DNA of 64,000 nt from Haloplanus aerogenes. Lineage in GTDB: Archaea > Halobacteriota > Halobacteria > Halobacteriales > Haloferacaceae. A program made the position numbers and the translations under genes. The stretch spans positions 992,001 to 1,056,000 of the forward strand of contig NZ_CP034145.1 in the NCBI RefSeq assembly GCF_003856835.1. Reading direction: 5' to 3'. Shown here piece after piece: positions 1,424 through 12,700 of the stretch. Position 1 is the stretch's first letter. Every line of letters starts with the position of its first letter. Below the pieces are notes generated by a model. It had not been told where the DNA came from and searched no databases. It saw nothing but the letters and a program-made list of their open reading frames with translations.

Positions 1424-1728
1424 TACTCACGGAGATAATAGAATCGAGCGCATAAAACCCGCGGCATTCCCCACGACTGACACAGCTCCGCCTCATCTAC
1501 ACCAGTCCACCAACTTCGTGAACCGCTCTGCATCTCGGCCACACTCTCCGCGAACTATGGTGATAGGAGTTGTGGGTAAGAGACAGGTCTTTAGGCGCGG
1601 GAGGAGGCCAAACGGAGAAAATGCCCGCTTGCCAAGCCATCGATTCATCATGGCCACTCGAAGGCGAGTGAGAAATGAGTCAAAGTAGCCCCGTAAGACT
1701 CTTAGACGCATATATCCTAATATATCGT
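1424..1728. other. Intergenic stretch without a recognised gene
   Basis: About 300 bases between the STT3-like gene and the antitoxin. I see AT-rich promoter-like sequence at both ends (near 1440-1460 and 1710-1728) and a short inverted repeat, CACTCG/CGAGTG, near 1655-1671. A 72-residue minus-strand frame covers most of the stretch but shows no recognisable domain. Confidence 0.4.
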
Positions 1729-1977
1729 ATGGTCAAAACCATTCGAGTCTCGGAGGAGTACCACAAGTGGCTCAGCGCCCACAAGGAGGGCGACGAGACG
1801 ATGGAGGAAACGCTGCGCCGGATGACGCGCGGCCCTCACCCTGGCGACGTTGCCGGCCTCTTGACCGAGGAGGAAGCCGAGGACGCCAAGGAAGCGGTGA
1901 ACCGCCTGCGCGGGCGTGACCGCGACCGCTTCGATACCGCCCGCAGCGCATTTGAAAGCGAGGGCACAGACGAATGA
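1729..1977 (+). CDS. vapB: VapB-like antitoxin (small acidic DNA-binding partner of a PIN toxin)
   Basis: An 82-residue acidic protein beginning MVKTIRVSEEYHKWLSAHK, the usual opening of archaeal VapB/DUF217-type antitoxins that pair with PIN toxins. The frame is open upstream to 1675. I chose the ATG at 1729 because the family starts with this strand and because AT-rich promoter sequence (tatatcctaatatatcg) lies directly before it. The last four bases (ATGA, 1974-1977) overlap the start of the PIN-domain gene, so the two are translationally coupled, the normal order for antitoxin then toxin. The N-terminus would bind the operator and the acidic C-terminus would neutralise the toxin; that assignment follows from the family and has not been shown here. 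Confidence 0.75.
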   Translation: MVKTIRVSEEYHKWLSAHKEGDETMEETLRRMTRGPHPGDVAGLLTEEEAEDAKEAVNRLRGRDRDRFDTARSAFESEGTDE

Positions 1978-2369
1978 TCATCGATTCCTCGTATCTCTTC
2001 GACCTGATGGCTGAGGACCCGGATGCATTCTCGAAGGGTGCGGAACTCGTCGAGGACGGCGAGATGCAGTGGTTGCCAACTCCGGTGGTCGCTGAGGCCT
2101 ACTACGGCGTCTTTACGGCCCGCAGCAATACCACCAAGAAGGAGGTGCGGAATCGCATCCTCGGGTACCCGCGCATCGACGTTGACGAAGAGATTGCGCG
2201 GAAAGCCGGGGAACTACTCGCGGCGGCAGACGACCGTGTGGGAGGGAACGCCAGCGTTGGGGCGAACGATGGGTACATCGCCGCGATGGCCGACGTCCTT
2301 GACGACGCGGTCCTGACAGACAACGTCGAAGATTTCGAAGCGTTGGGTGTGCCAGTCGAGACCTACTAA
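1974..2369 (+). CDS. vapC: VapC-like PIN-domain ribonuclease toxin
   Basis: A 131-residue PIN-domain protein. It opens MIIDSSYLFDLM, which places the first metal-binding Asp at residue 4. The central region has VAEAYYGVF (conserved Glu), and the C-terminal part has GANDGYIAAMA and AVLTDNVEDF, the usual last acidic cluster. VapC toxins are Mg-dependent RNases that cleave tRNA or rRNA when the antitoxin is degraded. It overlaps the upstream antitoxin by ATGA. The length and motifs look complete, so the pair is probably intact. Confidence 0.8.
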   Translation: MIIDSSYLFDLMAEDPDAFSKGAELVEDGEMQWLPTPVVAEAYYGVFTARSNTTKKEVRNRILGYPRIDVDEEIARKAGELLAAADDRVGGNASVGANDGYIAAMADVLDDAVLTDNVEDFEALGVPVETY

Positions 2370-2724: not shown

Positions 2725-5199
2725 TTAGTTGTCGCGCCGGGCGGCCAGCAGCGCAGCCGCGATGAGCGCGATGACCGCGACGATGGCACCGAAGCCGGGG
2801 CCGCCGCCTTCAGTCGTCTCCGTCGGCGTGGCCGTGTCCGTCGGCGTCGGTTCCGGCGTCGGTTCCGGCGTCGGTTCCGGCGTCGGTTCCGGCGTCGGTT
2901 CCGGCGTCGCGGTGTCCGTCGGCGTCGGTTCCGGCGTCTCCGTCGGTTCCGGCGTCGCCGTCTGGACGTTCTGGACGATCTCTACCTCGATGAGGTCCGT
3001 ACCCTCGCCGTCGTCGGCTTCGAGGTTATACGTGCCCGTCTGCACGTCTTCGAGCTCGAGTTCGACTTGCCACGTGCCGTCATACGACCACTCGTCGGTC
3101 GTCGTCAGCGCAATCGAGTCACCGTCCTGCGTTTGCAGTTCGGTGGTGATCGCGTTGTCGTCCGGACGCAGGTTCGTCGTTCCTTCAATGACCATCGTGT
3201 CATCAACGCCCACCGGGTTCACGCCGGAGGCTTCCATGCCCTCGGGGTAGACCGAGTCGATGCTCGTCCGAGCATCCGAGAGCTGGAAGTTCGCCGTGAC
3301 CATCCGGTCGTCACTCGCGACAGCTTCGGTCGTCTGGTCCGTAAGCCGCGCACGGACCTGCGAACCGGTCAGGTCTGCATCGCCAAGGTCAGTGACGAAT
3401 TCCGAGATGGATTCATCATCCGGCAGACCCTCACCGTAGGTGTCGTCACGACCGTTCGTGAGCACGTGGACGCTCACTTGGCCTTCGGACAGGTCGCCGA
3501 GATTGACCTCGTCCTCTTCGAACGTGTTGTCGTCGTCGACACTGATCTGTTCGTAGCCAGTGTTACCGCGCTCGTCGACGAACACGACATCAACGTTCTG
3601 GGAGCCAAGCGCCACACCCGACACGTTCACAACGTTATCGGTGGTCGAGACCTGGCCGCCAACGGTTTGGATTTGCGCAGTCAGTTCAGTATCGACCACG
3701 CGAAGGGATGTCTGTACACTCGTTCCAGTGTTGAACTCAGACACCTCCACGTCTTCTTCGATGCTGCCAGTACCACCGACATCTGCGGCGTCAATGGCAC
3801 CGAAGCGGTACGTACCAGGCAGCGAGAGGATATCGTTGCCGGGGCCGTTACCGCCGCCGGGACCCAGCTGAACGTCTTCGACTTCGTAGGTGTCGTCTGC
3901 GTCGACGTTCACCGAATCTTCACCGTCGATCTGGACGAGTTCGAACTCGCCTTCACGACGAGCGTAGAAGGCAACATCCTCGATCCCTTCGTCAGCGGTC
4001 CCGTTGAGATCGATTTCGCTACCGACGACGTAGGTGTCGTCCGGCGAATTGATCGTGATTTCGCCTTCCTCGATAGTGAGCGTCGGATCGTCTTCTAATC
4101 GATCCTCGTTGTCGAGGAAGTTCGAGACCTCACCTTCCGTGATTTCGCCATCAGAGCCATTGTAGAGTTCGACATCGACATCAGTCGTGTCGAGGCTGGA
4201 GGTGTCGATCTGGCCGACACCAACGCCCGTGTCGTCGTCAATCTCAACGACGGCCCAGGCGTAGTCGTCACTCGAACCGCGGTGAGCGACATCACCGACG
4301 TTCCGGAAGATGCGCTCTGCCGCCTCATCGTCGACCTCCACACCATCGCGGAAGTCGCCGCTCTCGATACCGACGACGTGGAAGTCACCGGCGTTCGAAC
4401 CACGGATCGTGTAAGTCACGTCCTGACCGCGCGTGGTCGTGTCCTCTTCAAGGTCGAGCGTAGCGTCATCGTCACCAGTGACGGTGACGGTCGTGCTCTG
4501 GGAAGCCTGACCGAAGTCGAGATTCTCGACACCAGCCACTTCGAACGTGTAGGTGCCGGTGTTGAGATCGGAGAGGTCCACATCCCACTCGACTTCACCG
4601 TCATCGATATCCCCTTCAGATCGGACAGCGTCGCCCTCGACCGCATCGCCGGTCACTTCGAGGCCGTCATCATTCTCGACGGTCAGTTCGATGTTTTCGG
4701 CTTCCTCATAGTTCCACGTGGCCACAGCGGTGAGCGCACCAGCGCCACTTTCATCGTCACCCTGCGGAACCGAGCCGCCAGCGATATCGGCTCCGTTCTC
4801 GTTCAGGACTTCGAAGTTCGTCACGCGCGGCGTGATGACCGTAACGGAATACGGATCACCGTCGGGCGCTGTGGAGTCGTTTACAGTGTAGGTCCCCGTC
4901 GGTTGATCATCTTCAACCGGGAAGGTCAGGGGTACACCCTCCTCGTCACCACCCGTTTTCACGGGGGTTTGATCGCTCCATTCGTCGCTGTATTGAATAT
5001 CCTCTTCACCTTGGAAGATCGTGTCACCGGGCTCAATATAGCCGATGTCTTCCTTTGACGTGTCGAATTCTCCGTCACCATTAGCAAGATCTGATCGGGC
5101 CAGAGCGTTCCCGGAGAGCGCCATGGTACCGGCGAAGATCGACAGTACCATGAGCGCCGCCAGGGTAATGGCGCGGATTTTGTCGTTTGTCGTTGTCAT
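2725..5199 (-). CDS. csg: S-layer glycoprotein with PGF-CTERM anchor
   Basis: An 824-residue secreted protein that would form the cell-surface S-layer. I start at the ATG at 5199 (MTTTNDKIRAITLAALMVLS), not the upstream in-frame ATG at 5244, because this gives the classic haloarchaeal S-layer signal peptide ending GNALA. The body is strongly acidic and beta-rich, with at least four N-glycosylation sequons (NDS, NGS, NGT, NVS). It ends in a Thr/Pro/Glu repeat spacer that is probably O-glycosylated, followed by GGGPGFGAIVAVIALIAAAL and a short basic tail. That is the PGF-CTERM signal processed by archaeosortase A and linked to lipid. The length fits the family. The STT3-like gene at the left edge could supply N-glycans, but that link is an inference. 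Confidence 0.92.
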   Translation of the reverse strand: MTTTNDKIRAITLAALMVLSIFAGTMALSGNALARSDLANGDGEFDTSKEDIGYIEPGDTIFQGEEDIQYSDEWSDQTPVKTGGDEEGVPLTFPVEDDQPTGTYTVNDSTAPDGDPYSVTVITPRVTNFEVLNENGADIAGGSVPQGDDESGAGALTAVATWNYEEAENIELTVENDDGLEVTGDAVEGDAVRSEGDIDDGEVEWDVDLSDLNTGTYTFEVAGVENLDFGQASQSTTVTVTGDDDATLDLEEDTTTRGQDVTYTIRGSNAGDFHVVGIESGDFRDGVEVDDEAAERIFRNVGDVAHRGSSDDYAWAVVEIDDDTGVGVGQIDTSSLDTTDVDVELYNGSDGEITEGEVSNFLDNEDRLEDDPTLTIEEGEITINSPDDTYVVGSEIDLNGTADEGIEDVAFYARREGEFELVQIDGEDSVNVDADDTYEVEDVQLGPGGGNGPGNDILSLPGTYRFGAIDAADVGGTGSIEEDVEVSEFNTGTSVQTSLRVVDTELTAQIQTVGGQVSTTDNVVNVSGVALGSQNVDVVFVDERGNTGYEQISVDDDNTFEEDEVNLGDLSEGQVSVHVLTNGRDDTYGEGLPDDESISEFVTDLGDADLTGSQVRARLTDQTTEAVASDDRMVTANFQLSDARTSIDSVYPEGMEASGVNPVGVDDTMVIEGTTNLRPDDNAITTELQTQDGDSIALTTTDEWSYDGTWQVELELEDVQTGTYNLEADDGEGTDLIEVEIVQNVQTATPEPTETPEPTPTDTATPEPTPEPTPEPTPEPTPEPTPTDTATPTETTEGGGPGFGAIVAVIALIAAALLAARRDN
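2843..2902 (-). repeat. Five tandem 12-bp units encoding the TPEP spacer
   Basis: Five perfect copies of GGCGTCGGTTCC (plus-strand sense) from 2843 to 2902, encoding repeated Glu-Pro-Thr-Pro in the membrane-proximal spacer of the S-layer protein. Perfect identity between copies suggests recent slippage, so spacer length probably varies among strains. Confidence 0.85.
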
Positions 5200-5308
5200 A
5201 GTTGTCTGTATGTTCGCAGTGGCAATCCAGTTGAACACTTTCATGCCGAGTTTGCGGGAGGGCCATTGCAGCCTCCGCTGGTAGGGGCATTAGGGATGTA
5301 CCTCGCTC

Positions 5309-5649: not shown

Positions 5650-6474
5650 TTACGTGGTCCAAATGGCTTTCACGTCGCCTTCTGGGAGTGATTGTTGCCA
5701 CTCCACTGTGAGGTCAGCTGCCTCGGTCTCCGCCGGAACGGAGTATACGAGGTCTCCCCGACGTACAGTCCGTCCGGCAAGCTCAGCACCTTCGTATGGA
5801 TCAGTACTGATTTCTTGATGCTGTGGCCGGCGTTCACCGTCAAGCTTAAGAACGAAATCCGAGGCTGGTGGGGCGGCCTGAGGGTTCTCTAGCCGATTCC
5901 GAACCTCAACACGCATGACTACCCATCTGTCGCCGTCTGAAGGAGTCATAGGCGTCGGCGTGGCCGTCTGGTCTGTTGCGGCACTGTTGGATGAGGATGG
6001 GTACTCGGACTGGAACGAGCCACCGAGTACATTGAGATAGAAGCCTGTCGGTGTGGCGTAAAAATTCCCAAATGTAAGCCGTTTCGGACGGACTTCAATG
6101 GTCCACTGAGATGAAAAGGCTGCCAGTCGAAACTGAACGTTCCCTAAATACCTTGGAGAAAACTCGGGACTAGTCCATGCTTTTGTCTCTCCAGCGGGGA
6201 TCGACAGTTGAAGAGTCCCTCGCTCTTTCCACGGCCCGTCGTTAGTCCGCATACTAACAGCGGACTCAAACGTACGGTTGGAGGATCCAAGATTCCGAAT
6301 ACGTATCGTGAAGGTCTGCGGAACGTTCAACATCGTTGAGTCTGGCGAGTCAATGCTGACAAGTTCAAAATTCGAGGCTCCGGTTTCGGTTCCAGTTTGT
6401 GTCCCCCCTCCATTATCCGAACATCCAGCGAGGGCGGTAGTGCCAACTAGAGCGAGGAACGCACGTCGTCTCAT
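5650..6474 (-). CDS. Exported Tat-type lipoprotein of unknown function
   Basis: A 274-residue protein. The N-terminus, MRRRAFLALVGTTALAGC, combines an Arg-rich start, a short hydrophobic stretch and a lipobox with Cys18, typical of haloarchaeal Tat-exported lipoproteins held on the outer face of the membrane. A Gly/Thr-rich linker follows. The first domain (about 35-135) looks like a beta-sandwich with phrases such as FTIRIRNLG. The second (about 175-270) has WVVMRVEVRNRLEN and FVLKLDGERRP, similar in style to DUF4352-like accessory beta domains. No catalytic motif is visible, so the ligand is unknown. It appears to be a single-gene unit. Confidence 0.75.
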   Translation of the reverse strand: MRRRAFLALVGTTALAGCSDNGGGTQTGTETGASNFELVSIDSPDSTMLNVPQTFTIRIRNLGSSNRTFESAVSMRTNDGPWKERGTLQLSIPAGETKAWTSPEFSPRYLGNVQFRLAAFSSQWTIEVRPKRLTFGNFYATPTGFYLNVLGGSFQSEYPSSSNSAATDQTATPTPMTPSDGDRWVVMRVEVRNRLENPQAAPPASDFVLKLDGERRPQHQEISTDPYEGAELAGRTVRRGDLVYSVPAETEAADLTVEWQQSLPEGDVKAIWTT

Positions 6475-6649
6475 AGGTGACGAACTCTACCGCCGAAAAT
6501 AAATGATGACCGATCCTCTGCGGATAGCTCTCTATGAGTACAGCGTACCCGTGACGAGGAATCAAGCATTCAATGAAGTTTCACGATGGAAGTTCAGAGG
6601 TAACTGACCGAAATTGATGTAATCACATCACTCGTTCAGTAACGTAGCA

Positions 6650-8257
6650 GTGGTCTCACAGTACGTATCAGAGCAAGCGCTCGCTGAGACATACGATCCG
6701 GAAACGGGCTGGGAGACGGTCCAACAGTATCGAGAGGCGAAACGGCTCGCTGACAATCAGCCGACTATCGCGCGGGCTGAAATCGCTCGACAAGTTGGCC
6801 GGCCACCGAGTGCGGTTCGAGGATGGCTTGCTGAGGGCAAGATTCCTCGCGTCGTAAAGGGCCTCAACACGGCCCGTGATCGTGGCTGGATCGGCATTGA
6901 AGAGACCGCAGAACGATTCCGTGCACTCAACCAACTCGTGGCGTGGATATTCTCTGGTGGTGGTCTGAGATCGGATGCGTTCGTTCCCGTATTTTCAGTT
7001 GATGACCAACTAACGCTCGCAACGATCCACCAGTTACTGCGAGAGGTGAATGTCTCGTACCGAATCCGGGAGCAGGACGACCCAGATCGGCATCTGGAGA
7101 TCATCCCGAAGGACGGTGCATCGATACTCGGCCGTGTCCTGACCATCCTTGGCGCACCAAAGGGTGTCAAGGCGAGGAAAGACCAGTTGACCTTGCCGTC
7201 CTATCTCACAGATACCGACAACGCACATCGGCGCGATTTTCTCCGAATCTACGTGCTAAATCGGGGGAGAGAATTGGCTAATCAAGAAACTGCAGGAGTA
7301 CACTTGTATGGGCTGAACTCACCGAGCTACTGTCAGGAGTTGAAGGAGCTAATTGAGGCGGCGACATCCGGGACCGCGACAGTTAGCAGTCAGAACCGGA
7401 TATGGATCTCATCTGAATCGGTCCACGATCTAGCGGGCGAGAAGCCACTTCGATCGGGACTCGCGACAAACGCCGTATTTGGCTCACTTACCCCGCCGAC
7501 CGAACGAGCAGTCGCGTCAACATACCGGCAGGAGAAAACACCAGGTGGCTATCAGTACTGGCAGCTGTTTAACGAAGTCCGTGAAAGCGATGCCTCGCGA
7601 GCAGAGTTAAGCGCACGCACCGGGCTCCGCGAGTCAACCATCAGAAGCTGGAAGCGGGGAAGCAGCCCATATGTTCACAACGGGCTCGAAACGACGCAAA
7701 CACATGGATGGCTCACCCCTCCAGCAGAGAGTGACATCGCACTAGGACTGACATCCCTCCTTGGCTGGCTTATTGCGCAAGGGTCGCTTCGAGACACCTA
7801 TTATCCAACCTTCGGCCTGCAATCTCCGGATCAGGAGCCGCACTTCTCTAGGATTGCTGCGGAGGTTGGAGTGTCATATTCCGTCGTGCACAGAGAGAGT
7901 GCGAGTCGACGAACGGAGATTCGACCAACTGAAGATGGGGCAGTACTGGGCCGAGTGCTTTACGCGCTTGGTGCTCCACGCGGAACTAAAGCTGAACAAG
8001 GCTGTCTTCTCCCAGTCTATCTCCACCATCATGCGTCACACGCGCGCCGATTCGTCAGGAGCTGGTGTCTGCACCATGCCCATAGCGATGGTCAGAGAAC
8101 GATCAATATCCCCCCACGATTCGGACATCAATTCCCGAAGGCGCTCGAAACACTTCTCGTTGCACGACTCTCATGGGACGTTGACTGGAAGAACGAGCGA
8201 AAACTGGTCGTCCAGCCAAGCGAGGAATGGGATGGCAGCATTTGGGACCTATCCTGA
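6650..8257 (+). CDS. Tandem HTH / degenerate LAGLIDADG-like protein
   Basis: A 535-residue protein starting at GTG, made of two copies of one module. Each copy has a helix-turn-helix (about 38-62, ARAEIARQVGRPPSAVRGWL; and about 315-337, RAELSARTGLRESTIRSW), a short GLNTARDRGW or GLETTQTHGW strand, then a fold resembling a LAGLIDADG homing-endonuclease half-domain. The LAGLIDADG-equivalent helices are LVAWIFSGGGL (97-106) and LLGWLIAQGSL (370-380). The acidic residue that ends a catalytic motif is Gly or Gln here, so nuclease activity is unlikely. GRVLTILGAPKG (161-172) and GRVLYALGAPRG (434-445) mark the matching second halves. By analogy with WhiA, this may be a site-specific DNA-binding regulator; that is inference. 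It stands alone, just upstream of the broken DICT gene. Confidence 0.65.
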   Translation: MVSQYVSEQALAETYDPETGWETVQQYREAKRLADNQPTIARAEIARQVGRPPSAVRGWLAEGKIPRVVKGLNTARDRGWIGIEETAERFRALNQLVAWIFSGGGLRSDAFVPVFSVDDQLTLATIHQLLREVNVSYRIREQDDPDRHLEIIPKDGASILGRVLTILGAPKGVKARKDQLTLPSYLTDTDNAHRRDFLRIYVLNRGRELANQETAGVHLYGLNSPSYCQELKELIEAATSGTATVSSQNRIWISSESVHDLAGEKPLRSGLATNAVFGSLTPPTERAVASTYRQEKTPGGYQYWQLFNEVRESDASRAELSARTGLRESTIRSWKRGSSPYVHNGLETTQTHGWLTPPAESDIALGLTSLLGWLIAQGSLRDTYYPTFGLQSPDQEPHFSRIAAEVGVSYSVVHRESASRRTEIRPTEDGAVLGRVLYALGAPRGTKAEQGCLLPVYLHHHASHARRFVRSWCLHHAHSDGQRTINIPPRFGHQFPKALETLLVARLSWDVDWKNERKLVVQPSEEWDGSIWDLS

Positions 8258-8469: not shown

Positions 8470-9885
8470 TGATGCGTAGCGCGGAGTCCCCTTCCTCAAG
8501 CGCGTGCAGAGCGAGCGGTAGGGAGGGGAGGAGCGCGTTCGCCACACCAAGCTAACACTCTCTACTTTCACTCTGCTTGGCGACTAGTTAAATACACGCA
8601 GTCCTATGATTGGGTGTGGACGAGTGGGTACGTCGAACCGCGATAACTCGCCTTTCGGTCGACGACGAGCAACGCGAGTTGTTCGAACAAACCATCAGTG
8701 CGTACAAGCGCGGCTGTCAGATTGCGACCAATCTCGCTTGGAAGCGTTGCAACGAGAAACGCGAGGCCCAATCCCTCGCCTACGAACCCATACGCGAGAA
8801 GACTGCGCTGGGCTCCCAGCACGCACTTCTTGCCACTCATCAAGCTGCCGAAGCTATCACAGGATGTATCGCACGGCGCTCGACGGGCAAGAAAACCAGC
8901 AAACCCCAGTTCACTGCTTCCACGGTGACCTATGATACGCGGTCGATGACGCTGTTCGATGACGAGACTGTCTCGCTTGCCACCACCACGGATCGGGTTC
9001 GCTGTCCACTCGTCCTTCCCGACGACGAAGATGGCTACCAGCGTCAGTACCTCGACTCCGACGACTGGCAAGTCACCGAAAGCACACTTACCGCTCGCGA
9101 CGGCGAGTACTTCCTGCATCTTGGATTCCGCCGACGCAAGAACGAGACTGAACGTGATACCGCCGAGGACGGAACGGTCCTCGGGGTCGACCTCGGCATC
9201 GAAAACCTCGCCGTCACGAGTACCGCTCACTTCGTCAGCGGGCGTGAGTTAACGCACACTCTGCGTGAGTTCGAGAACGTACGTGCTGGGCTCCAACAGA
9301 CAGGGACCCGAAGCGCTCATCGCACGCTCGTGCGCTCGAGTGGGCGGGAACTCCGATATATTCGAGACGTGCTCCATCAAACGTCGAACTCGATTGTCGA
9401 GGAAGCGCTCCGATACGATTGCGACGTGATCGCTTTCGAGAACCTAAGCCACATCCGCGCTCGGACGAGAGCGTCATGGGGTCACAGATGGGCGTTTCGG
9501 ACGCTCTACGAGCAGGTCGAGTACAAAGCAGAAGCCGTCGGACTCACGGTGAAGCAAGTCCTCGCGCGGAACACGTCAAAGCGATGTGCAGAGTGTCGGT
9601 TCACGGCCACAGAAAATCGGCCGACTCGGAACACGTTCCACTGTCAGGAGTGTGGCGCCCGAGCGAACGCGGACTACAATGCAGCGAAGAACATCGGACT
9701 GCGGTATGTCCGTCAAGGCCATCAGTCGTCTCGGCGGACGGGCACCAGTCAGCTGGCCCTGAAGTCTGGAACGGTGACGCCGAAGGGCGGATTTACCGCC
9801 TACCCCAACGGGTTTGAGGCCGAGTTCACGGACAAGCCCCGTCCTTAGACGCGAGCTTAGCGAGCGTCAGGACGGGGTAGTTGAC
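8470..9885 (+). mobile_element. IS1341-type (IS200/IS605 group) element 1, TnpB only
   Basis: The left boundary is set by the break in the DICT frame and the TCCCCTTCCT/AGGGAGGGGA hairpin at 8487-8529. The right boundary is the CCCCGTCCT/AGGACGGGG hairpin (9837-9845 / 9869-9877) followed by TAGTTGAC, the usual form of haloarchaeal right ends. It carries tnpB only, with no tnpA, so it would depend on a TnpA supplied elsewhere. There is no target-site duplication, as expected for this group. Confidence 0.75.
8610..9848 (+). CDS. tnpB: TnpB RNA-guided nuclease of an IS1341-type element
   Basis: 412 residues from the TTG at 8610; the GTG at 8616 is an equally good start. It has the OrfB N-terminal helices, then the RuvC-like core with all three acidic residues: Asp194 (LGVDLGIENL), Glu277 (VIAFENLSHIR) and Asp355 (RANADYNAAKN). 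A four-Cys zinc finger lies between the last two (C326, C329, C345, C348). TnpB cleaves DNA next to a transposon-associated motif using an RNA made from the element's right end, which favours element retention. Length and motifs are intact, so the protein is probably active. The C-terminal 45 residues overlap the likely guide-RNA region. Confidence 0.9.
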   Translation: MGVDEWVRRTAITRLSVDDEQRELFEQTISAYKRGCQIATNLAWKRCNEKREAQSLAYEPIREKTALGSQHALLATHQAAEAITGCIARRSTGKKTSKPQFTASTVTYDTRSMTLFDDETVSLATTTDRVRCPLVLPDDEDGYQRQYLDSDDWQVTESTLTARDGEYFLHLGFRRRKNETERDTAEDGTVLGVDLGIENLAVTSTAHFVSGRELTHTLREFENVRAGLQQTGTRSAHRTLVRSSGRELRYIRDVLHQTSNSIVEEALRYDCDVIAFENLSHIRARTRASWGHRWAFRTLYEQVEYKAEAVGLTVKQVLARNTSKRCAECRFTATENRPTRNTFHCQECGARANADYNAAKNIGLRYVRQGHQSSRRTGTSQLALKSGTVTPKGGFTAYPNGFEAEFTDKPRP

Positions 9886-10121: not shown

Positions 10122-11372
10122 GTGGCGATTCAGGTCACTCGCACCTACGTTGGTTCCATTCAGAACCACTGGCAGGTCTGCAATGGCCTCGATTCGCTCG
10201 GTGATTCCGCCTCGAAAATCTGGAACATCGCACGCTGGACAGCCGACCGCGTATGGGATGAAACCGGCGAAATTCCAGATGAAGGCGTGCTGAAATCGTA
10301 TATGAAGAACCGCGAGTGCTGGAAAGACTTGAACGCGCAATCCAGTCAGAAAGTCATCGAAGAACTTTCTGACGCTTTCCAGTCGTGGTTCGACCTGCGA
10401 CAGAACGACCCAGAGGCGAATCCGCCCGGCTACCGCAAACACGGCGACACCCGGCCCAAGAGTACGGTCACGTTCAAAGCAGACGGCTTCAAACACGACC
10501 CCGAACACAACCGCGTCCGACTCAGCAAAGGCTCAAATCTGAAAGAGCATTTCTCGGACTTTATCCTCTGCGAGTACCAGACTCGCCCCGACGTTGACCT
10601 CTCAGAAGTTAACCGAGTGCAGAACGTTCGCGCCGTCTGGAACGGCGACGAGTGGGAACTACACTTCGTCTGCAAAGTCGAACTCGAAACCAACGACTCC
10701 GCAGGCGACGGTGTTGCTGGTATCGATCTTGGTATCAAGAACATCGCCACGGTTGCGTTCCCCGACGAATACGTCCTGTATCCCGGCAACTCGCCCAAGC
10801 AGGACAAGCACTACTTCACCCGAGCAGAGTACGATACCGAGGGTGAGGACGGCCCGTCAGAGCAGTCGATGTGGGCGCGTCGGAAGCTCGCTGACCACGA
10901 AACGCACTTCTACCACACGTTGACGGACACCATCATCACCGAGTGTGTCGAACGCGGTGTTGGGGCGGTCGCGGTGAGTTGGCCGGAAGACGTGCGCGAG
11001 TCCGACTGGGGCAAGACCGGCAATAAGAAGTTGCATTCGTGGGCGTTCGACCGCATCTACCAGTACCTCGAATACAAAGGCGAGAGACGTGGCGTCGAGG
11101 TGCTGAAAGAGAATGAATGGGATACGTCGAAGACGTGTTCACGATGTGGGGACGACACGAAGTCGAACCGTGTCGAACGTGGATTGTACGTCTGCTCATC
11201 GTGCGAGTTGGTAGCCAACGCGGATTGCAACGGGGCGGAGAACATGCGGCAGAAGATAACTCCGAGTCCTCACGGTGAGGATAGGAGTAACGGCTGTGTG
11301 GCACAGCCATCGACATACTTGTTCGACCGCGAGAGCGGGATGTTTCGCACGAGAGAACAAGCCGTGTCGTAG
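10122..11372 (+). CDS. tnpB: TnpB of element 2, RuvC glutamate not at the usual place
   Basis: 416 residues from the GTG at 10122. The RuvC core has Asp202 (VAGIDLGIKNIAT) and Asp368 (VANADCNGAEN), with a zinc finger between (C339, C342, C358, C361). The middle motif reads VGAVAVSWPEDVRESDWG. Relatives usually have an acidic residue two to three positions earlier (VVGDL or FENL), whereas here those positions are Ser286-Trp287-Pro288 and the first acid is Glu289. The protein may be a weakened or dead nuclease that still binds RNA and DNA, or the motif may have shifted. It belongs to a different TnpB branch from the gene at 8610, as shown by its N-terminus and its long insert after the first Asp. 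The C-terminal tail (NGCVAQPSTYLFDRESG) is typical of this branch. Confidence 0.88.
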   Translation: MAIQVTRTYVGSIQNHWQVCNGLDSLGDSASKIWNIARWTADRVWDETGEIPDEGVLKSYMKNRECWKDLNAQSSQKVIEELSDAFQSWFDLRQNDPEANPPGYRKHGDTRPKSTVTFKADGFKHDPEHNRVRLSKGSNLKEHFSDFILCEYQTRPDVDLSEVNRVQNVRAVWNGDEWELHFVCKVELETNDSAGDGVAGIDLGIKNIATVAFPDEYVLYPGNSPKQDKHYFTRAEYDTEGEDGPSEQSMWARRKLADHETHFYHTLTDTIITECVERGVGAVAVSWPEDVRESDWGKTGNKKLHSWAFDRIYQYLEYKGERRGVEVLKENEWDTSKTCSRCGDDTKSNRVERGLYVCSSCELVANADCNGAENMRQKITPSPHGEDRSNGCVAQPSTYLFDRESGMFRTREQAVS

Positions 11373-11887: not shown

Positions 11888-12319
11888 TTAATTGAATGGG
11901 TTGTCCGGCGTCTCCAGACGGGTGAGGCCCTCGATGCTGTCGAAATCGTCGTCGAACGAGTACAGGAATTCGACATCGATCCGCTGCATGTACGCGACGA
12001 CCGTCGCGTCCCCGAATGCGAGTCCGTCGTGAGCCTCAAACAGTTCCACTGCGCGGTGAAAGTCCTTCTGAGCGGCGTGGACCAGTTCGAAGCCGGCCGA
12101 ATCCGAGAGCCGGTCGCGGAGGTCAACCGCTATATCGTGGCGCTGGCGCTCATGGATCCAGTTTAGGGACTCCAGAAGCACGTAGTTCGTGATTCGAGCA
12201 GTCGGGAGTTCTCCTCGGTCGATGGCGTGGACAATGGCTTCTGCCTGTTCGTGGCGGCTGTCGGCGCTCGTATCCTTGTAGTCGATGAGGATGTTCGAAT
12301 CGACGACTGTGACCGCCAT
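11888..12319 (-). CDS. vapC: VapC-like PIN-domain toxin
   Basis: 143 residues with a full PIN-domain pattern: VVDSNILIDYK (Asp near residue 7), a central NYVLLESLNWI (Glu), and LAFGDATVVAYMQ and YSFDDDFDSIEGL near the end. It would be a Mg-dependent RNase. Its start codon directly abuts the stop of the upstream AbrB-type antitoxin gene, giving a coupled antitoxin-toxin operon. It differs from the pair at 1729-2369, which has a VapB of another type. Confidence 0.85.
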   Translation of the reverse strand: MAVTVVDSNILIDYKDTSADSRHEQAEAIVHAIDRGELPTARITNYVLLESLNWIHERQRHDIAVDLRDRLSDSAGFELVHAAQKDFHRAVELFEAHDGLAFGDATVVAYMQRIDVEFLYSFDDDFDSIEGLTRLETPDNPFN

Positions 12320-12592
12320 TCAGACGTTCTCCATGAATGTGGGATCTTCTTCATGGCCGGCGAGGTCGTGCGTTTCGAGGCCATCACCACCCATCGGTGC
12401 CTGCAGGTCGTCATCCTCGAACGCACCGTAGCGCTGTCGGACGACTTCGACGGAGAGGCGTCCCTCCTCGCTGATATTCCAGCGGAGCTTGTCGCCGGCC
12501 TCGATGTCGAGACGCCGACGGAGCGACGCCGGGATCGTGACCATTCCCCGATCGTTGACCGTGGTTTCCTCGGAAGCATCTTCGGTCGACAT
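12320..12592 (-). CDS. vapB: AbrB/SpoVT-type antitoxin
   Basis: 90 residues from the ATG at 12592 (MSTEDASEETTVNDRGMVTI); an in-frame ATG at 12634 is possible but adds residues outside the domain. The swapped-hairpin AbrB core is clear: TVNDRGMVTIPASLRRRLDI, GDKLRW. The acidic C-terminal tail would bind the PIN toxin encoded immediately downstream. The core would bind the operator and repress both genes. Confidence 0.85.
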   Translation of the reverse strand: MSTEDASEETTVNDRGMVTIPASLRRRLDIEAGDKLRWNISEEGRLSVEVVRQRYGAFEDDDLQAPMGGDGLETHDLAGHEEDPTFMENV

Positions 12593-12700
12593 ACTCGGCA
12601 GTACGGACCCGTTGCGTGATACATGTTGCGCCACATGCGCAGTTGACCGCCTCCCACAGCCGAAACCGTGTGTGTTCGCCTTGCGTGTTCTATGGCCAGC

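Follow-up and report, generated by a model that had tools for sequence, protein, structure and literature searches.

Our analysis revealed that a gene on the forward strand of the archaeon Haloplanus aerogenes, at positions 6650 to 8257 of the 64,000-nucleotide stretch of DNA analysed here (the window), encodes a protein of two tandem modules, each with an HTH region followed by a predicted LAGLIDADG fold from which the catalytic acids are lost. This catalytically dead protein is probably a DNA-binding regulator of adjoining surface-structure genes, since a dead LAGLIDADG fold is combined with an HTH region, its single-module relatives lie in a fixed divergent placement beside type IV pilin genes, and a conserved element occupies the intergenic DNA. 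More tentatively, and with some doubt on our side, haloarchaea may have domesticated a homing-endonuclease fold into surface-gene regulators that reside on chromosomes, on plasmids and in a virus and have pilin genes as target, and tandem duplication in Haloplanus may then have given a four-half regulator of S-layer genes.

Gene, modules and predicted fold

The open reading frame at 6650-8257 (+) in this 3.5 Mb genome is a single uninterrupted frame of 535 codons with a GTG start, and six other Haloplanus genomes encode its 535-residue product from end to end (51-54% identity). The tandem genes are low in GC content (0.49-0.56). About 30-45 nt before the GTG, alignment of the seven upstream regions brought out a promoter-like element CCGAAATTGATGTAAT (6607-6622, +), which is partly conserved 5' of all seven Haloplanus tandem genes and may represent BRE/TATA. 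As for the protein, residues 1-281 match residues 282-535 with 32% identity over 201 residues (E = 4e-27), which bears out the two similar modules noticed in an earlier reading of the letters (hereafter the sequence-only reading). The paired phrases quoted there are all found in the chain, namely LVAWIFSGGGL at 96-106 and LLGWLIAQGSL at 370-380, and GRVLTILGAPKG at 161-172 and GRVLYALGAPRG at 434-445.

In the first module, a helical HTH region (6671-6880, residues 8-77), seen as weak HTH matches by sequence and as a five-helix region in the model, is followed by LAGLIDADG half 1 (6911-7147, residues 88-166) and half 2 (7220-7435, residues 191-262), whose catalytic positions are occupied by Gly103 (6956-6958) and Arg205 (7262-7264). 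The second module, likewise on the forward strand, repeats this order with an HTH region at 7547-7705 (residues 300-352), recognized from a weak HTH match, the model and the internal repeat, then half 3 (7733-7966, residues 362-439) with Gln377 (7778-7780) and half 4 (8033-8251, residues 462-534) with His476 (8075-8077). The HTH regions proposed beforehand for both modules are thus found again. The AlphaFold prediction for module 1 with 25 single-module relatives (pLDDT 91, pTM 0.89) gives five helices and then the order a-b-b-a-b-b-a twice, while that for the full chain (pLDDT 91.8, pTM 0.92) gives four LAGLIDADG halves, with module 2 like module 1.

Comparison of the models by VIA-align agrees with the LAGLIDADG fold suggested before: the Z scores are 16.1 and 17.5 against the archaeal TliVMA intein endonuclease, 12.7 and 13.7 against I-DmoI, 12.3 and 12.7 against WhiA of S. 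venezuelae in the RNA polymerase complex (8dy7), 10.9-11.4 against T. maritima WhiA (3hyi), and only 8.5-9.3, a weak match, against the LAGLIDADG maturase bI3. Moreover, the family profile matches that of 11 haloarchaeal intein endonucleases with a score of 49.9 (E 1.5e-6) and with both LAGLIDADG helices in register, where the best of 100 column-shuffled controls reached 20.6; scores were 15.5 for the reversed profile and 12.5 for the HTH part by itself. The modelled halves and this in-register match together indicate that each module, not the module pair, is a complete two-half LAGLIDADG pseudo-dimer, and that the chain as predicted contains four halves. Here the sequence-only reading, which saw one half-domain per module and a pseudo-dimer formed across the modules, has to be given up; in fact, single-module relatives of about 265 residues are common. 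Searches of Pfam, NCBIfam and PDB sequences with the window protein returned weak HTH matches and chance matches alone, and the Pfam LAGLIDADG models matched neither the window protein nor 26 family members. Matches in BFVD to Marseillevirus and Pithovirus RNA polymerases were set aside, being probably due to inteins within those proteins.

Active LAGLIDADG homing endonucleases cut a long DNA site with Mg2+, and an acidic residue ends each of their LAGLIDADG helices. The Gly and Gln named as non-acidic catalytic residues by the sequence-only reading are correct (Gly103 and Gln377), and the second helix of each module, FLRIYVLNRG at 197-206 and FVRSWCLHHA at 468-477, is equally without acid. 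Among 61 aligned modules, none has Asp or Glu at either catalytic position, so the loss across homologues is confirmed. The first position is Gly in every N module and in 44 of the 45 singles, with Thr or Ala as rare exceptions, and the second is Arg in every aligned single and N module, while the C modules of the tandem form have Arg, Gln, His or Ser at the first and His, Tyr or Trp at the second. Neither a model lacking LAGLIDADG halves nor an aligned homologue with catalytic acids, the two outcomes named beforehand as speaking against the reading, was encountered. As singles, N modules and C modules are all acid-free, the acids were most simply lost before the duplication. The idea of an exapted homing-endonuclease pair does not survive in that form: all aligned single-module relatives are already without the acids, so that the pairing is a later tandem duplication or fusion of an already dead module.

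Family history and gene neighbourhoods

A relative of the window protein is present in 161 of the 391 Halobacteria genomes, and the tandem form in 7 of the 12 Haloplanus genomes. A scan of contigs with the window protein alone found nothing, and with the family alignment it gave 42 named loci. A tree of 40 modules separates the N modules and the C modules into two clades without exception (support 100/100 each), which points to a single duplication or fusion that gave the Haloplanus tandem, followed by divergence; the C-module branches are longer than those of the N modules. Another tandem of 622 residues, encoded at L057:1844-3712 (-) in Natrinema thermotolerans (G025) and adjoining a pilin gene, is built from modules of two other subgroups and would be an independent fusion, unless it is an error of the draft genome. 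Family genes also occur on 22 plasmid records, including pNRC200 of Halobacterium salinarum NRC-1, on which the family gene (locus VNG_RS13700) and a type IV pilin gene (VNG_RS12020) are divergent. The members inspected are annotated as 'hypothetical protein'; we found no curated Pfam or NCBIfam family covering the single or tandem proteins, and in the open-access literature no paper describing an HTH-LAGLIDADG family. Decayed or truncated family genes stand beside pilin genes at L147, L139, L142, L146, L115, L117, L118, L121 and L122. Several of these loci also carry the 52-bp element described below, and at L147 (about 1986-2566) the gene is split, with its N-terminal part on one strand and its C-terminal part on the other, as though by inversion.

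The single-module genes are tightly linked with type IV pilins: a canonical pilin gene lies within 2.5 kb of 59 of the 62, and in 52 the pilin is divergently upstream. As the Haloplanus genomes hold 3-10 Pilin_N genes each, proximity by chance is of the order of 1%. Two Haloplanus genomes (G239 and G392) hold both forms of the family, and in each it is the single-module copy that lies beside a pilin gene. The same pair is seen in the temperate pleolipovirus SNJ2, whose gp9 (L135:4980-5768, +) is a family member and whose divergent gp10 (4191-4655, -), annotated as hypothetical, is a pilin (Pilin_N E 4e-16). In Natrialbaceae, the region between the pilin and family genes contains a bipartite element of 52 bp, TTTCAnnnnTGAnAAnnA-N29-TTGAA, which precedes the TATA-like box of the pilin, and SNJ2 carries this element too, between gp10 and gp9. 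Twelve Natrialbaceae genomes have 22 sites in total, each adjoining a pilin gene; 13 of these sites also adjoin an intact family gene, and of the other 9, 4 come with a truncated one. The reversed control pattern has no match in 111 genomes. Over these 111 genomes, gene and element occur together in 60, the element only in 14, the gene only in 14 and neither in 23 (Fisher P = 1e-5, a statistic that ignores relatedness). These distributions support a cis element of pilin promoters, for which the family protein is a candidate reader; the 14 element-only genomes nevertheless argue against an exclusive relation, and with 14 more having the gene without the exact element, another factor may read it.

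Between the TATA box and the start codon of the Natrialbaceae pilin genes there is also a folded 5' leader, about 130 nt long. At the loci used (L081-L111, minus strand, all at pilin genes with a family member), single leaders folded with z < -2 relative to shuffles in 24 of 27 cases (mean -3.4), sharing a common closing stem and usually two inner hairpins. RNAalifold on the MAFFT alignment of the leaders predicted no pairs, the 5' arms being probably misaligned, and Rfam gave no match for six loci; the leader is possibly an undescribed RNA element.

The tandem form has a different neighbour. An S-layer glycoprotein gene (TIGR04216) lies within 4.2 kb of it in 6 of the 7 genomes. In the window this gene (2725-5244, -; PGF-CTERM, NCBIfam E = 5e-216) is 1.4 kb from the tandem gene, with one lipoprotein-like gene of no family match (5650-6474, -) between them. 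The S-layer gene is divergent at about 0.2 kb in G135 and G239, convergent at 0.73 kb in Haloplanus sp. GDY1 (csg), co-directional about 0.2 kb downstream in G394, and 4.1 kb away, with a contig edge, in H. ruber; in G392 the nearest one is 33 kb from the tandem gene. As divergent, convergent and co-directional arrangements all occur, the linkage does not come from inheritance of a single gene order. A search for an operator common to the upstream regions of the seven Haloplanus tandem genes found the promoter-like element alone. An S-layer-specific element near the tandem gene was considered and rejected, for the conserved leader and promoter are also present at an S-layer gene that does not lie near the tandem gene.

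Some further features of these loci may be recorded. The genome of the window (G000) has five TIGR04216 genes above the curated cut-off, the one in the window being one of several paralogues. Two TnpB-like genes (OrfB_IS605, Cas12f1-like TNB; 8610-9848 and 10122-11372, +) lie 3' of the tandem gene; TnpB genes also adjoin the tandem gene of G392, and a TnpB fragment is near that of H. ruber. Toxin-antitoxin-like pairs, VapB-like/PIN and MazE-like/PIN, flank the locus at 1675-2369 (+) and 11888-12634 (-).

Proposed role and rival explanations

Our explanation supposes that the single-module proteins bind the intergenic DNA shared with the divergent type IV pilin gene and, once bound, would regulate transcription of that gene. 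In Haloplanus, the tandem form with its four halves would then most likely serve S-layer glycoprotein genes in the same way, perhaps by covering a DNA site that is longer or repeated. This role for the tandem form is probable on weaker grounds than the pilin case, because the search for an operator found none and one tandem gene in seven has no S-layer gene adjacent to it; the neighbouring S-layer gene is accordingly a candidate target.

Several other explanations deserve consideration. Instead of regulating transcription, the protein could assist as an accessory factor when surface-gene cassettes are exchanged or rearranged, marking the loci where pilin or S-layer genes are swapped by recombination. 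The plasmid records and virus SNJ2, the low GC content of the tandem genes, the truncated copies beside pilins with the L147 copy split into opposite orientations, the TnpB genes adjoining several members and the varying orientation of the S-layer gene beside the tandem form are all in keeping with it. Nevertheless we consider it unlikely, considering that the protein has neither strand-cleavage catalytic residues nor an integrase-like domain, that conserved inverted repeats were not demonstrated, and that the fixed divergent pilin arrangement (52/62) suits a regulator better. More unlikely to our mind is a maturase-like role, in which the protein would act on pilin mRNA, binding its folded 5' leader and so controlling translation or stability. 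LAGLIDADG maturases bind intron RNA, and such a role is suggested by the folded leader with its common closing stem as well as by the weak model match to bI3; however, DNA endonucleases and WhiA match better structurally, an HTH region usually goes with DNA binding, the leader data cover pilin genes with a family member only, and the tandem form has no known RNA link.

It is also conceivable, though improbable, that mobile elements simply carry the family gene as a passenger in surface-gene cassettes and that it does not act on its neighbours. The mobile distribution and the frequent decay (several copies are frameshifted or truncated) would be expected in this case, but the sequence is constrained across families, with 19 invariant residues in 26 singles and N modules, and the fixed divergent orientation together with the conserved intergenic element indicates a functional tie. 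Finally, the fold as a whole matches active enzymes, so an active homing endonuclease or nickase whose active site has changed might be imagined; with both acids missing in 61/61 modules, we find this hardly credible.

A DNA-binding regulator of the adjoining surface genes, our preferred explanation, would have several consequences if true. To our knowledge, the control of haloarchaeal pilin and S-layer genes is poorly understood, and the HTH-LAGLIDADG family would supply a candidate regulator that can be put to the test, also in the model organism Halobacterium salinarum NRC-1. On the more tentative reading given at the outset, an infecting virus or plasmid might arrive with both a pilin and the regulator of that pilin, thus remodelling the host surface. 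Moreover, four LAGLIDADG halves in one chain make an unusual architecture.

Comparison with known systems

A homing endonuclease that became a transcription regulator is well known from WhiA, and the present family, if our explanation is true, would be a second and archaeal case, with another domain order and a clear candidate target. The WhiA-style regulator suggested by the sequence-only reading stands in part. Both proteins combine a dead two-half LAGLIDADG fold with an HTH in one chain and are alike in structure, WhiA (DUF199) being described as a degenerate LAGLIDADG domain, bereft of key metal-binding and catalytic residues, with a DNA-binding HTH (PMC3781837). This likeness is probably one of design, not descent: the HTH is C-terminal in WhiA but N-terminal to each LAGLIDADG fold here (8-77, 300-352), and the models WhiA_N, LAGLIDADG_WhiA and HTH_WhiA were unmatched at E <=10 for the protein and at E <=1 for 26 members, under HMMER filters that drop most very weak matches. 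In biology too, WhiA is a regulator of sporulation and cell division in Gram-positive bacteria, whereas the present family is haloarchaeal, linked with pilin and S-layer genes, and in the window a tandem of two units.

The closest folds are instead the archaeal intein and intron endonucleases TliVMA, PhoVMA, I-Tsp061I and I-DmoI (Z 12.7-17.5), which share the two-helix register; in contrast to them, the window protein showed no intein splicing block, has no catalytic acids, and has the HTH region in addition. A LAGLIDADG RNA maturase is encoded in a group I intron and binds it; the family genes are free-standing. Free-standing LAGLIDADG genes, assigned to the LAGLIDADG_2 endonuclease family (pfam03161), are also reported from the alternative glycosylation islands of Haloferax (PMC5867893), likewise near haloarchaeal pilin genes; the present family differs from these in matching no Pfam LAGLIDADG model and in being without catalytic acids. 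Altogether, as the WhiA domain order and profile match failed and the closest structures are archaeal intein endonucleases, the domestication of this fold in haloarchaea was probably independent of that of WhiA.
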